Source: Planctomycetota bacterium (lineage in GTDB: Bacteria; Planctomycetota; Brocadiia; Brocadiales; Brocadiaceae). From it: DNA of 36,852 nucleotides. The stretch covers positions 1 to 36,852 of the forward strand of contig JACRII010000126.1 of the NCBI GenBank assembly GCA_016235875.1. Reading direction: 5' to 3'. Both the position numbers and the translations under genes were made by a program. Every line of letters begins with the position of its first letter. Within the stretch, counting starts at the first letter, position 1. Below are positions 9,196-13,892 of the stretch, piece after piece. The notes beneath the pieces were generated by a model. The model worked only from the letters and a program-made list of their open reading frames with translations, made no database searches and was not told the DNA's origin.

Positions 9196-9426
9196 TTATT
9201 TGAACCTTCTGATAAAGACATGAATCTCCCCTTCTGCCTCTTCAATACCGAGGAGTTTATTTCCCGTGGTGTTGCACCAGGAAACAATATCCTTTTTAAT
9301 ACCTTCGTCTGTGGCAACAACCTCAAGCACTTTGCCTATTTCAATATCTTTAATTTTACTTGCCGTTTTAAAAATAGGCATGGGACACATAAGTCCGTAA
9401 CAATCTAAGGTTTCATCTGCTTTCAT
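9196..9426 (-). CDS. tusA: TusA/SirA-family sulfurtransferase
   Basis: This 76-residue protein has the small alpha/beta fold of TusA. The motif CYGLMCPMPIFK places the CPxP catalytic Cys at residue 14 and a second Cys at residue 9. TusA-like proteins accept persulfide sulfur from a cysteine desulfurase and hand it on, for example to tRNA thiolation, molybdenum-cofactor enzymes or dissimilatory sulfur pathways. Here it is the last gene of a minus-strand cluster with nifU-like and nifS-like genes, about 44 bases after nifU across a G/C-rich hairpin. Function in that sulfur relay is inferred from context. No other relay subunits (TusBCDE) are present. Confidence 0.88.
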   Translation of the reverse strand: MKADETLDCYGLMCPMPIFKTASKIKDIEIGKVLEVVATDEGIKKDIVSWCNTTGNKLLGIEEAEGEIHVFIRRFK

Positions 9427-9470: not shown

Positions 9471-9896
9471 TTAATGCCCGTGATGTTCGTCGTGTGCATG
9501 TGGTTTCTTTTTCTCAAGACCTTTCCCAGTCGTTTTCTTGAGATAGTCATCAATGGCTGCCTCGATGGCCTCTTCAGCAAGCACAGAGCAATGCATCTTG
9601 GCCGGGGGTAGTCCACCTAATGCCTCTGCCACCGCTTTGTTAGTGAGCTTTAATGCCTCATCTACGGTCTTTCCTTTGATCATTTCAGTAGAAATACTGC
9701 TGGTGGCTATTGCGGCGCCGCAACCGAAGGTCTTGAATTTCACATCTACAATGACGTTATTCTCGACTTTAATGGACATCTTCATAATATCGCCACACGC
9801 CGGGTTCCCAACCTCTCCCACACCACTAGCATCAGGAAATTCTCCTACATTACGGGGATTTGCAAAATGATCCATGACTTTTGGACTGTACTGCAT
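9471..9896 (-). CDS. nifU: NifU/IscU-like Fe-S cluster scaffold protein
   Basis: The protein has 141 residues. The scaffold Cys residues are at 34 (NPACGD, with Asp36), 59 (FGCGAAIATSS) and 103 (KMHCSVLAEEAI). This is the three-Cys plus Asp pattern of IscU/NifU N-domain scaffolds, which assemble a 2Fe-2S cluster with a cysteine desulfurase. The C-terminus carries an extra basic and His-rich tail, PHAHDEHHGH (residues 132-141), beyond the usual fold; it could bind metal. The start is well supported by AAGGAG 6 bases upstream. It lies in the nifS-uma2-nifU-tusA cluster. The neighbouring NifS-like protein lacks the PLP lysine, which makes the source of sulfur for this scaffold uncertain. Confidence 0.92.
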   Translation of the reverse strand: MQYSPKVMDHFANPRNVGEFPDASGVGEVGNPACGDIMKMSIKVENNVIVDVKFKTFGCGAAIATSSISTEMIKGKTVDEALKLTNKAVAEALGGLPPAKMHCSVLAEEAIEAAIDDYLKKTTGKGLEKKKPHAHDEHHGH

Positions 9897-9911: not shown

Positions 9912-10463
9912 TTAAAATATCTCTTTTAATGGTATTTTCAAGCCTTTCAGGGAAGGTGATACAATCTCATCAACTTTCCTATACGTACAATAAAGCCTGT
10001 AGGCATTCCCTTCCAGGACATAAACTTCTATCTCCTCCTCTTCCGGAATTACTATCCAATACTCTTTTACACTAAATCTCGCATAAAGCCTTTTCTTCTG
10101 CACCATGTCCCTGTACACACTATGCTCCGAGATTATTTCTATTACAAGGTTAGGTGAACCTTGTATATTTTTTTCTCCTATAATACCCAATCTATCCTTC
10201 GATATGAATAATATGTCCGGCTGAACTACATTTTCGTTGTCAAGATAAACGTCGCACGGAGCATAAAACACCTCACCAAGGTTATTTTCTGTAATAAACT
10301 TTCTCAATATAAATTCAAGTTTTCCCGAAACTCTTTGATGATTAGGAACAGGTGATGGTGTCATGAGTAATTCTCCATTGATAAGTTCATACCTCTTATC
10401 TTCTGGGGTCTTAAGATAATCCTCGTATGTACATCTTTTCTTTTCAACCTCAATAGGCGCCAT
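9912..10463 (-). CDS. Uma2-family (DUF820) restriction-endonuclease-like protein
   Basis: This 183-residue Uma2 protein has a PD-(D/E)XK nuclease-like fold. Visible motifs are YEDYLKTPEDKRYELINGELLMTPSP at the N-terminus, VQPDILFIS near residue 95, LVIEIISEHS near 123 and YARFSVKEYWIV near 146. The Asp of PDI and the Glu of VIEI correspond to the predicted catalytic acidic residues. The biological role of the family is unknown; it is abundant in cyanobacteria and planctomycetes and often scattered singly. A near-perfect Shine-Dalgarno AGGAGGTG lies 5 bases before the ATG. Its position between nifS and nifU, with gaps of 38 and 15 bases, looks like an insertion into a sulfur operon. A C-terminal remnant of a paralogue is at 4634-4768. 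Confidence 0.88.
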   Translation of the reverse strand: MAPIEVEKKRCTYEDYLKTPEDKRYELINGELLMTPSPVPNHQRVSGKLEFILRKFITENNLGEVFYAPCDVYLDNENVVQPDILFISKDRLGIIGEKNIQGSPNLVIEIISEHSVYRDMVQKKRLYARFSVKEYWIVIPEEEEIEVYVLEGNAYRLYCTYRKVDEIVSPSLKGLKIPLKEIF

Positions 10464-10501: not shown

Positions 10502-11668
10502 TCATTTCTTTTGGCTATACAAGGGCGACATTTGCCTTAAACGTTCCACAATGGGTGGTAATTTTTCCAATACATAGTTAACATCTGACTCAGAATTGTC
10601 AATCCCTAAGCTGAAAAGAACTGTCCCCTGAGCAAGCGCAGCATCGACACCCGCAGCCATGATGACATGAGACGCCTTGAGCGACCGCGAAGTACACGCA
10701 GAGCCACTTGAAATGGCAATCCCCTGCATATCCAGAAATAGTAAAACCGATTCGCCCTCAATATACTCTATGCACAGACTGAGATTGCCTGGCAGACGAT
10801 TCGTTGGATGTCCATTGAGATACACATGATTTATACTTTTCATGATACCGTCTCTTAGCTGATTTCTCAAGTTCTGTATCTTGTTCATGCGCTGCGACAT
10901 TTCTAATTTCGCCAGTTCAGATGCCTTCCCCATGCCAACAATTCCAACAATATTTTCAGTGCCTGCCCTGCGGCCGCCCTCCTGCACACCCCCTTCCACG
11001 AAAGGAAGTATCCTTACTCCCTCCCTGAGATAAAGTGCACCAATCCCTGACGGACCGTTAAATTGATTGGCCGACATACTCAAGGCATCGATATGGGAAT
11101 CCAAAACATCAATAGGTATATTCCCCGCTGCCGCAACCGCATCTGTATGGAAAATAATACCTTTCTCCTTTGTAATAGCCCCGATTTCTTTTATTGGTTC
11201 AATTGTCCCAATCTCCCCATTGGCATACATAATAGAAACCATCGTCGTCGTTGGTGTGATGGCTTTTTTAACGTCGTCCGGATTCACCATCCCATATTTG
11301 TCAACAGGTAAATAGGTAATCACGCATCCAGATTTTTCTAGTGATTTTAACGGATTAAGCACAGAAAAATGTTCAATTTGTGTGGTAATAATATGGTTTC
11401 CCTTTTTTTTGTGGGATGACAAAATACCTTTTATGGCAAAATTGTTGGCCTCGGTACCGCTCGATGTGAATATGATTTCATTAGGTTTGGCATGAATAAG
11501 ATTCGCTACATGTCCTCGCGCTGTTTGTATGGCATCACTCGTAATCCTTCCAAATTGATGCAGGTTAGAGGGGTTGCCAAATCCCTCCTTTAAAAACGGT
11601 ATCATAGCCTCTACCACTTTAGGATGTACAGGTGTTCCCGAGGCGTTGTCCATATATACTTTTTCCAT
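10502..11668 (-). CDS. NifS/IscS-like protein with PLP lysine replaced by Gln
   Basis: This 388-residue class V aminotransferase-fold protein is related to cysteine desulfurases. It has SGTEANNFAIKG (71-81), the His of IEHFSVL at 100, Asp176 of FHTDAV, GGVQEGGRRAGTEN (about 228-241) and the catalytic-loop Cys325 in SSGSACTSRS. The residue that normally forms the PLP Schiff base, the Lys of SGHK, is Gln202 here (SMSANQFNGPSGIG; codon CAA at 11063-11065). The usual Gln three residues after Asp176 is Ala179. The C-terminus MSPLY and the S-x-N-(D/Q) signature resemble the Archaeoglobus fulgidus IscS, which is known to lack this Lys. A classical PLP-dependent desulfurase activity is therefore doubtful. 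It may act as a persulfide carrier or IscU partner. Confidence 0.9.
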   Translation of the reverse strand: MEKVYMDNASGTPVHPKVVEAMIPFLKEGFGNPSNLHQFGRITSDAIQTARGHVANLIHAKPNEIIFTSSGTEANNFAIKGILSSHKKKGNHIITTQIEHFSVLNPLKSLEKSGCVITYLPVDKYGMVNPDDVKKAITPTTTMVSIMYANGEIGTIEPIKEIGAITKEKGIIFHTDAVAAAGNIPIDVLDSHIDALSMSANQFNGPSGIGALYLREGVRILPFVEGGVQEGGRRAGTENIVGIVGMGKASELAKLEMSQRMNKIQNLRNQLRDGIMKSINHVYLNGHPTNRLPGNLSLCIEYIEGESVLLFLDMQGIAISSGSACTSRSLKASHVIMAAGVDAALAQGTVLFSLGIDNSESDVNYVLEKLPPIVERLRQMSPLYSQKK

Positions 11669-11687: not shown

Positions 11688-13892
11688 TTATTTTACCTTT
11701 TCTAATTTTGCGTATGCTAACATGAGATGTTTTGTTCCACTGATATTAAAACTGACCCTGACGCTTGTCTTTTCTTTGCTGCCGCAAACCTCCAATACCC
11801 TTCCAATACCAAAAACGGGATGTCTAACTACTTCCCCACTCGAAAAGGACACGGAATCATCTTCTGATGAGGGACTTATCAAATCATGGGTATCTATATC
11901 ATTGAAATCAAATTTAAGCATTGTGTCATAAACTGTCTTGTTATCTGCGTTAAAAGTATTAAAAGCATACTTACGATTTGTTTTATCGATTTTATCTATA
12001 ATTTCTTCCGGAATCTCATCTAAAAACCTGGAGGCAATAGATGGATTCATCTGGCCGTAACGCGTCCGCCGCCTGGCATGTGTGAGGAAAAGTTCTTTCA
12101 TTGCCCGTGTAATACCCACATAACAGAGTCTCCGCTCCTCTTCGAGCTCCTCATCCAGGTCTTTGGATTCTGCATGAGGCAACAGTCCCTCCTCCATACC
12201 CGTAATAAAAACAACGGGAAACTCCAATCCCTTGGCAGTATGCAGGGTCATGAGGGTAACAGCATCAACGTCGTCTTCCAATTCATCGGCATCAGAAACC
12301 AATGCCACTTCCTCCAGAAATCCCTGTAACACGCCTTCAGAATAATTTAGGTCATATTCGTGTGCGGCATTAACCAGTTCTTCAACGTTGGCAATGCGGT
12401 CTTTCGATTCCTTTTCATCGGATTCGCGGAGAAACTCTATATATTTCGTTTCTCCAATCACCTGCCTGACAATCTCTTCAACGGGTGATTTTGGCAATTT
12501 TTGTAAATGTGCAATGAGTTCAGAAAATCCTTTTATTAACAGGGTGGTCTTGCCTTTAATATCGGGTATTACATCCACATTCCGTATGGCATTAAACAGG
12601 CTTGAACCTTGTGCTGCAACCCAGTCTTCAAGTTTTTTAACGGTGGTATTACCTATGCCGCGTGTGGGCGTGTTGATTATGCGTTCCAGCGCAACCGCAT
12701 CGTGAGGATTGATGCAGAGTCGGAGGTACGACAAGATATCCTTGATTTCCTTCCTTTGATAGAATTCCACGCCCCCGATAATTGTATAAGGAATCCCATA
12801 ATTTCTCAGATAAATTTCCAGCACGCGGGACTGGGCATTGGTACGGTAAAATAATGCGATATCAGAATATTTAGTCCCCCTGCCGGCAAGCCCCTTTATC
12901 AGTTTCGCAATCTCTTCCGCCTCGCTGTGTTCATCTTCACACGAGATCACCTTGAGCTTCTCACCTAGCATATTTTCCGTCCAGATGTTTTTTTGCTTTC
13001 GATATTTATTTTGCTGAATCACGCTGGAAGCCGCATGAAGGATATGTTTCGTAGAGCGGTAGTTTTGTTCCAACAGCACCACCTTTGCATCGGGATAGTC
13101 CTTCTCAAAATCCATAATGTTTCTGATATCCGCCCCGCGCCAGCCATAAATCGACTGATCGGGATCACCCGTCACACAGATGTTTCTATATTTATCTGCC
13201 AGAAGTCGCGTAATGGTATACTGGGTATAATTGGTATCCTGATATTCATCAACGAGAATAAACCTGAATTTGTCCTGATACATCTCAAGAATATCAGGAT
13301 GTTTCTTAAAGAGTTCCACGGTCTTAATCAAGAGGTCATCAAAATCTAAGGCATTATTTGCCTTAAGAAGGGACTCATATTTTGCATAAATTTGGGCAAC
13401 AGTTCGGTTGTAATAACCTGAAGCTGTTGAAGCAAAGGTTTCTGGCCCAACAAGTTTATTTTTGGCATTGCTAATAGAACTGGCAATAGTACGAGGTTTC
13501 CATTGTGCAGTATCCAGTTCAAGCTCGGCCATAATAGATTTCACCCGGTTTAGTTGGTCGATCGTATCGTAGATGCTAAAATCCCGTGAATACCCCAATC
13601 TCTCGATGTTACTTCTCAGAATTCGGGAACACATCTTGTGGAAGGTGGAAACCCAAAGTCCTTTATGCGATGAAAACTGTTTTACGCGATCAACCATTTC
13701 ATCGGATGCCTTGTTGGTAAAGGTAATGGCCAGGATGTTGTAAGGATTTACACCCTGAGACATCAAATAGCCGATGCGGCGTGTAATTACGCGGGTTTTC
13801 CCGCTGCCAGCCCCCGCCACCACTAAAAGAGGTCCCTCTATATGGGTAATAGCCTCGCGCTGCTTGTCTGTAACGTCATGTAATAGTGACAT
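11688..13892 (-). CDS. pcrA: UvrD/PcrA-type superfamily I DNA helicase
   Basis: The 734-residue protein has the full set of SF1A helicase motifs. Motif I is VAGAGSGKTRV (about residues 26-36), motif II is LVDEYQDTN (about 225), motif III is TGDPDQSIYGWRGA and motif IV is LEQNYRST. Motif V is LMTLHTAKGLEFPVVFITGMEEGLLPH and motif VI is EERRLCYVGITRA. The C-terminal domain VRHPVFGIGRVLEV is the Tudor-like RNA-polymerase-binding fold found in PcrA/UvrD. It is a 3'-5' helicase for nucleotide excision and replication-conflict repair. The ATG at 13890-13892 begins 5 bases after the stop of the upstream methyltransferase. nifS starts 19 bases downstream. No good ribosome site is visible, consistent with coupled translation. 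Confidence 0.95.
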   Translation of the reverse strand: MSLLHDVTDKQREAITHIEGPLLVVAGAGSGKTRVITRRIGYLMSQGVNPYNILAITFTNKASDEMVDRVKQFSSHKGLWVSTFHKMCSRILRSNIERLGYSRDFSIYDTIDQLNRVKSIMAELELDTAQWKPRTIASSISNAKNKLVGPETFASTASGYYNRTVAQIYAKYESLLKANNALDFDDLLIKTVELFKKHPDILEMYQDKFRFILVDEYQDTNYTQYTITRLLADKYRNICVTGDPDQSIYGWRGADIRNIMDFEKDYPDAKVVLLEQNYRSTKHILHAASSVIQQNKYRKQKNIWTENMLGEKLKVISCEDEHSEAEEIAKLIKGLAGRGTKYSDIALFYRTNAQSRVLEIYLRNYGIPYTIIGGVEFYQRKEIKDILSYLRLCINPHDAVALERIINTPTRGIGNTTVKKLEDWVAAQGSSLFNAIRNVDVIPDIKGKTTLLIKGFSELIAHLQKLPKSPVEEIVRQVIGETKYIEFLRESDEKESKDRIANVEELVNAAHEYDLNYSEGVLQGFLEEVALVSDADELEDDVDAVTLMTLHTAKGLEFPVVFITGMEEGLLPHAESKDLDEELEEERRLCYVGITRAMKELFLTHARRRTRYGQMNPSIASRFLDEIPEEIIDKIDKTNRKYAFNTFNADNKTVYDTMLKFDFNDIDTHDLISPSSEDDSVSFSSGEVVRHPVFGIGRVLEVCGSKEKTSVRVSFNISGTKHLMLAYAKLEKVK

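Follow-up and report, generated by a model that had tools for sequence, protein, structure and literature searches.

The window, by which we mean the whole stretch of 36,852 nucleotides that was analysed, comes from a planctomycete of the family Brocadiaceae, and its minus strand carries, in order, pcrA, a nifS gene whose product lacks the catalytic lysine, a Uma2-family ORF, iscU, and tusA (Table 1). A sequence-only reading of this DNA had described a NifS/IscS-like protein next to nifU and tusA. That ORF is real, as are both neighbors; the nifU gene is of the IscU type, and its product has all three cluster Cys residues plus the Asp (NPACGD, FGCGA, LPPAKMHCS). In most genomes of the window family, TusA and IscU are likewise encoded downstream of the Lys-less nifS. 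The Uma2 ORF occupies the nifS-iscU junction in the window and in some of these genomes and is absent from others; it probably entered the operon recently by insertion. The PcrA/UvrD-type helicase is not thought to be part of the sulfur function. There is no DsrE gene beside the nifS cluster here. Elsewhere in the same genome, contig C115 (locus L419) contains a second TusA-like gene together with DsrE-like, sulfite-reductase-like, and cysteine-synthase-like ORFs, a possible sulfur-assimilation cluster.

Table 1. Features of the Lys-less nifS locus in the window.
Feature	Position	Strand	Details
NifS/IscS-type Lys-less protein	10502..11668	minus	388 aa; fold type I, class V aminotransferase family
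Gln202, codon CAA	11063..11065	minus	Schiff-base lysine position
Ala179	11132..11134	minus	replaces PLP O3' glutamine
Leu351	10616..10618	minus	replaces substrate-binding arginine
Cys325, mobile loop SGSACTS, invariant	10694..10696	minus	alignment; predicted loop 324-329
Uma2-family ORF (PF05685; putative endonuclease)	9912..10463	minus	between nifS and iscU
IscU/NifU-type scaffold	9471..9896	minus	TIGR03419 209.7 bits vs cut-off 187.9
TusA sulfur carrier	9196..9426	minus	PF01206 82.8 bits; CPxP cysteine (CYGLMCPMP)
PcrA/UvrD-type helicase	11688..13892	minus	upstream neighbor of Lys-less nifS in most Brocadiales

The window NifS matches PF00266 at 268.8 bits, and its best curated model is NifS (TIGR03402) at 522.6 bits, below the NCBIfam equivalog cut-off of 530.75. 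Its predicted AlphaFold monomer has a pLDDT of 92.1, with the mobile loop as the sole segment under 50, and the model superimposes on the structures of NFS1, E. coli IscS, and A. fulgidus IscS with a TM-score of about 0.95. The residues with known roles in E. coli IscS are Thr76, His104, Asn155, Asp180, Gln183, Ser203, His205, Lys206, Thr243, Cys328, and Arg356; we take Gln202 of the window protein to be the equivalent of Lys206, Ala179 of Gln183, Asn201 of His205, and Leu351 of Arg356. Reading the active-site columns of the alignment, we found Lys at position 202 in 82/82 Lys-containing relatives and Gln at position 179 in 80/82, so the two substitutions noticed from the sequence alone hold up. 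There are two further losses that the sequence-only reading had missed: position 201 is His in 82/82 relatives and Asn in the window protein, and position 351 is the substrate-carboxylate Arg in 81/82 and Leu in the window protein. This Arg is gone from the bacterial and the Asp-type archaeal Lys-less proteins in general. The other functional residues are unchanged (Thr72, Asn150, Asp176, Ser199, and Thr237, along with the His100 and Cys325 whose retention had already been noted). Because the Lys residues closest to the active site are 169 (just after Lys167) and 248, leaving none within 32 residues of position 202, realignment cannot place a Lys there. These data show that the window protein is a NifS/IscS homologue with Gln at the Schiff-base lysine position.

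These losses are fixed under purifying selection. A strong NifS-type match is present in 62/62 Brocadiales genomes searched, and all 44 Brocadiales orthologues that were read, which are 61-100% identical to the window NifS, have Gln at position 202 (30 from the window family, 12 from a Scalindua-like family, and 2 from a third). Given that this Gln is encoded by a mixture of CAA and CAG codons and that pairwise dN/dS values against the window NifS are about 0.05 (0.046-0.064), neither a sequencing error at the codon nor decay of the gene accounts for it. We regard the Brocadiales as an anammox lineage because hydrazine synthase is matched in 6/7 of the relatives tested and in 0/14 control genomes; the incomplete genome that contains the window yielded no match of its own.

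Whether a second, Lys-containing desulfurase accompanies the Lys-less protein, a point raised by the sequence-only reading, has a divided answer. Most sister genomes do encode a Lys-containing NifS paralogue (SGHKL motif; 46-49% identity) that has a NifU of its own, and none was seen in the window's own genome, which is 83.5% complete; there, contig C189 stops inside a second NifU gene at the point where the relatives continue into the Lys-containing gene. Nor was a Lys-containing IscS-type paralogue found in two window-family genomes, G020 and G026, estimated to be 99-100% complete. In several Brocadiales (L066, L067, L068, L070, and L120), the Lys-containing NifS domain lies in a frame of ~1140-1177 aa, apparently a fusion. 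There is also a second clade of Lys-less NifS proteins (L098-L104), 51-54% identical, drawn from the Scalindua-like family and one further family; in these the Lys motif reads SHTF, SQPF, or GHAF, so that Thr, Pro, or Ala stands in for the Lys. Within this clade IscU adjoins only L099, a thioredoxin ORF lies near the nifS of L101 and L102, and L101 also has a thiol-disulfide membrane protein nearby.

To survey the family more widely, we combined a scan of genome contigs with whole-genome searches of the Planctomycetota, the Chloroflexota, and the phyla of a Methanosarcina and a Bathyarchaeon. Active-site columns were read from a profile alignment, and removal of duplicates left 112 Lys-less and 195 Lys-containing genes. 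The residue at the Lys position of the Lys-less genes is Gln in 60, Asp in 33, Thr in 11, Pro in 3, Ala in 2, and Ser, Arg, and Asn in 1 each. The bacterial holders include Brocadiales, Chloroflexota (Dehalococcoidia), Omnitrophota, Acidobacteria, Smithella, Nitrospirae, and deep-sea MAGs; the archaeal ones are Bathyarchaeota, Methanoperedens, A. fulgidus-type genomes, and relatives of Methanosarcina. In one of these, genome G553, the protein differs by eye from A. fulgidus IscS2 (PDB 4eb5) at a single residue, Ile16Val. A search centered on 'Deltaproteobacteria CSMAG_1231' returned Chloroflexota genomes, leaving the sampling of Desulfobacterota narrow. The MAG in question (L170, 'Deltaproteobacteria bacterium CSMAG_1231') shares its phylum with a Dehalococcoidia genome, and its label is probably wrong. 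The survey bears out the idea that a family of Lys-less NifS proteins exists that is paired with IscU and retains the loop Cys.

The tree of these proteins points to more than one loss of the lysine. We built a careful tree from 80 rows with the active-site columns excluded. In it the archaeal Asp clade has support of 98/97, the Methanosarcina-type Thr clade 100/100, and the bacterial Lys-less clade 98/93; this last clade includes one Lys-containing protein (L173), has another (L246) as its sister at 99/95, and is nested together with Lys-containing proteins in a branch supported at 99/99. Lys-containing proteins therefore separate the bacterial from the archaeal Lys-less clades, and 0% of bootstrap trees group all the Lys-less rows on one side. 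A constraint that unites the bacterial Lys-less proteins with those of the archaeal Asp type comes at a cost of 33 log units, and the AU test gives this grouping p=0.09. This tree replaced a quick tree of 141 rows in which a single Lys-less clade was not rejected (p=0.86); the free search of the quick tree was incomplete, and we consider it superseded because its constrained search reached a better likelihood than the free one. There are at least two and perhaps three Lys-less clades, and two or three origins are likely. The sequence-only reading had proposed one Lys-less lineage that takes in A. fulgidus IscS; the separate clades do not support it, although it retains some probability. The two marks of kinship it had pointed to fare no better, as SPLY ends like the C-terminal MSPLY are common among Lys-containing NifS proteins, and the trees give the bearers of the S-x-N-(D/Q) signature no close relationship. 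The Lys-containing protein inside the bacterial clade, from Nitrospirae SZUA-242 (L173, 6001-7164), no longer has the Gln or the Arg, and its gene adjoins TusA; it looks like an evolutionary intermediate.

We then scored the neighborhoods of these genes, counting a gene as linked when a TusA or DsrE-family protein is encoded within 2 kb on the same strand. Adjacency was scored by domain coordinates, since whole-ORF coordinates gave an undercount; the profiles for DsrE and DsrE2 ended up matching the same set and were scored together. We dropped a profile built for the C-terminal domains of Nfu after it had drifted into IscU. By this measure TusA or DsrE lies beside 79/112 Lys-less genes and 1/195 Lys-containing genes, and the sole linked Lys-containing gene is the apparent intermediate, L173. 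When only loci flanked by 1.4 kb or more on both sides are counted, the figures are 64/92 versus 1/167. Among 41 genomes in which both kinds were sampled, the link is found at the Lys-less copy only in 27, and at the Lys-containing copy only in 1, the remaining 13 having it at neither copy or at both. For an earlier tally (68/101 versus 1/186), Fisher's test gives p of about 3e-39, a value that ignores kinship; phylogenetically independent contrasts number only 2-4, too few for significance alone.

The link recurs across the clades: TusA adjoins 39/65 bacterial, 29/33 archaeal Asp-type, and 7/7 Methanosarcina-type genes. It is missing from the second Scalindua-like Lys-less clade (0/7 with TusA alongside), and in the Scalindua-like family the Lys-less nifS has neither iscU nor tusA adjoining, both genes lying elsewhere in those genomes. 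At representative loci the identities of TusA (PF01206) and DsrE2 (PF13686) were confirmed by Pfam, and the CPxP Cys is present in every linked TusA except L175, which has Tyr instead. Loci of the A. fulgidus type are arranged as DsrE-IscS-IscU and TusA-DsrE-IscS-IscU clusters, and operons of the Methanosarcina IscS1 type (L364-L369 and L382, with Thr for Lys) also include TusA and DsrE. Because the archaeal order is TusA-DsrE-IscS-IscU and that in Chloroflexota and Smithella is IscS-IscU-DsrE2-TusA, the association was kept or made more than once. What the sequence-only reading had drawn from one locus, that the adjacent TusA fits a sulfur relay, is thus part of a strong general association, which is the pattern that a persulfide relay would predict.

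How might such a protein work? The window NifS retains the IscS fold, the Asp and His of the cofactor pocket, the IscU partner, and the mobile-loop Cys, but it would form no internal aldimine with PLP and have no grip on the carboxylate of cysteine. Because the Lys and the Arg are gone, L-cysteine is not expected to be the source of sulfur for the loop Cys. We infer that the protein is inactive toward cysteine and that sulfur is transferred, and in which direction: it is probably a pseudo-desulfurase in which Cys325 accepts sulfane sulfur from TusA/DsrE and donates it to IscU, a reading in which we have moderate confidence. A persulfide on TusA would deliver sulfane sulfur to Cys325, with a TusA-DsrE pair as the donor in other lineages, and Cys325 would hand it on to the adjacent IscU for cluster assembly; the usual transfer from IscS to TusA would be reversed and then followed by the transfer from IscS to IscU. 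Candidate origins of the sulfur upstream of TusA include sulfide-derived persulfide, thiosulfate, and another desulfurase.

TusA and IscU are rivals for binding E. coli IscS, and the steps of such a relay would therefore be sequential. Using the E. coli IscS sequence, we take Trp45 to correspond to Arg41 of the window NifS and Asp52 to Gln48. Both E. coli residues contact TusA (PMC2854127) and both are changed in the window protein; because these main contacts differ, docking of TusA on the window NifS is not to be assumed. In the E. coli complex itself, IscS docks TusA with the two Cys residues about 4 A apart (PMC2854127), and the transfer of sulfane sulfur or thiosulfate by TusA-DsrE proteins is established in other systems (PMC4175335). 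Gene adjacency, which is a different thing from interaction, suggests a TusA/DsrE relay. In its broader form, the proposal is that a cysteine-independent pathway of Fe-S assembly, fed by sulfane sulfur and running from TusA, often with DsrE, through a pseudo-IscS to IscU, evolved on two or three occasions among anaerobic bacteria and archaea, through loss of the desulfurase chemistry once TusA had been gained as donor, with the anammox cluster and A. fulgidus IscS-IscU as instances; we see this generalization as about equally likely to hold or to fail.

The explanation that competes best with a relay is that Cys325 is a transient ligand that helps free sulfide to be built into a [2Fe-2S] cluster on IscU, while TusA and DsrE belong to a separate, coincidentally co-regulated sulfur pathway. 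For the A. fulgidus proteins (PMC7585200, PMC9769115), the IscS-IscU structure has the IscS Cys as a cluster ligand and desulfurase activity is reported to be lacking; the window NifS shows the same losses, keeps its Cys, and is paired with IscU. This account leaves the presence of TusA/DsrE beside Lys-less but not Lys-containing IscS in several phyla without an explanation. A ligand role is also compatible with a relay, to which it could be added; the two accounts part at the TusA step alone. As a full explanation, we judge the ligand account unlikely while giving it real weight.

It is improbable that the protein is still a PLP or PMP enzyme, one that holds its cofactor non-covalently and carries out a different chemistry or weak desulfuration. 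Almost all Lys-less members of the bacterial and Asp-type archaeal groups have the pyridine-N Asp, the stacking His, the Asn, and the phosphate Thr, and the A. fulgidus IscS-IscU complex was solved with PLP present (PMC9769115, Fig. 1 legend); that the window protein does without PLP, as the sequence-only reading implied, is not to be taken for granted. The loss of the substrate Arg, the O3' Gln, and the phosphate His argues against an enzyme of this kind, however, since it removes the amino-acid site, and the A. fulgidus homologue is reported to be inactive (PMC7585200). Slightly less probable again is that the Lys-less NifS forms a heterodimer with its Lys-containing paralogue in that cell, or regulates this paralogue. 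Both copies do occur in most Brocadiales, and IscS dimers share the PLP-phosphate threonine across subunits, a residue retained in the window as Thr237. Yet the paralogues differ at more than half of their positions and each has a separate IscU gene, the two IscS copies of the A. fulgidus type are both Lys-less, and the two nearly complete window-family genomes offer no Lys-containing partner. A decaying or artefactual gene, whether through sequencing error, misalignment, or pseudogenization, has next to no chance of being correct, as the model score just under the curated cut-off is set against a conserved Gln, strong purifying selection, and a stretch of sequence free of Lys.

The closest known relative by description is A. 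fulgidus IscS2 (PDB 4eb5, 4eb7, 4hvk; D199K mutant 4r5f), which is 44% identical to the window NifS with a TM-score of about 0.95. In both proteins the Schiff-base Lys, the O3' Gln, the phosphate His, and the substrate Arg are replaced, the loop Cys is kept, and iscU adjoins. The A. fulgidus protein differs in having Asp at the Lys position, where the window has Gln, and in belonging to the separate archaeal clade; loci of its type carry DsrE, one copy having TusA-DsrE, whereas the bacterial window nifS has no neighboring DsrE. In Methanosarcina acetivorans, IscS1 (MA0808) was reported to lack the catalytic Lys, and its iscS1-iscU1 cluster to include four genes 'of unknown function' (PMC7585200). 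The relatives of this protein in our sample (L364-L369) lie in TusA-DsrE-IscS-IscU clusters, so that in them two of the neighbors are TusA and DsrE; these proteins have Thr at the Lys position and Asp at the equivalent of His104, keep the Arg, and form the third clade.

Lys-less IscS is thus already known in Archaeoglobus and Methanosarcina. What is new is the bacterial Lys-less clade, the existence of at least two Lys-less clades, and the linkage to TusA/DsrE, including that at A. fulgidus-type loci; in the open-licence literature, where silence is weak evidence of absence, we found no report of the bacterial clade or of this link. The A. fulgidus structures had led only to the cluster-ligand proposal for an IscS unable to desulfurate cysteine, and with TusA/DsrE linked almost exclusively to the Lys-less copies, a specific and testable sulfur donor can be named for both A. 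fulgidus and the anammox bacteria. Annotations of 'cysteine desulfurase' in anaerobes call for a check of the active site.

Other systems share parts of this arrangement. The MIS system (MisS/MisU, Garcia et al., via PMC12442378) is likewise a minimal two-gene pair of a desulfurase-like and an IscU-like protein, and MisS is described as a cysteine desulfurase. Canonical NifS/IscS desulfurases have the fold, the family, the IscU partner, and the mobile-loop Cys in common with the window NifS; they have the active-site Lys, Gln, His, and Arg, whereas the window protein is without all four and scores below the NifS cut-off. Finally, the tusA-dsrE2 clusters of sulfur oxidizers (PMC4175335) draw on the same carrier families (PF01206, PF13686/PF02635); there the carriers are linked to Dsr or Hdr, in contrast to Lys-less loci, where they are tied to iscS and iscU.
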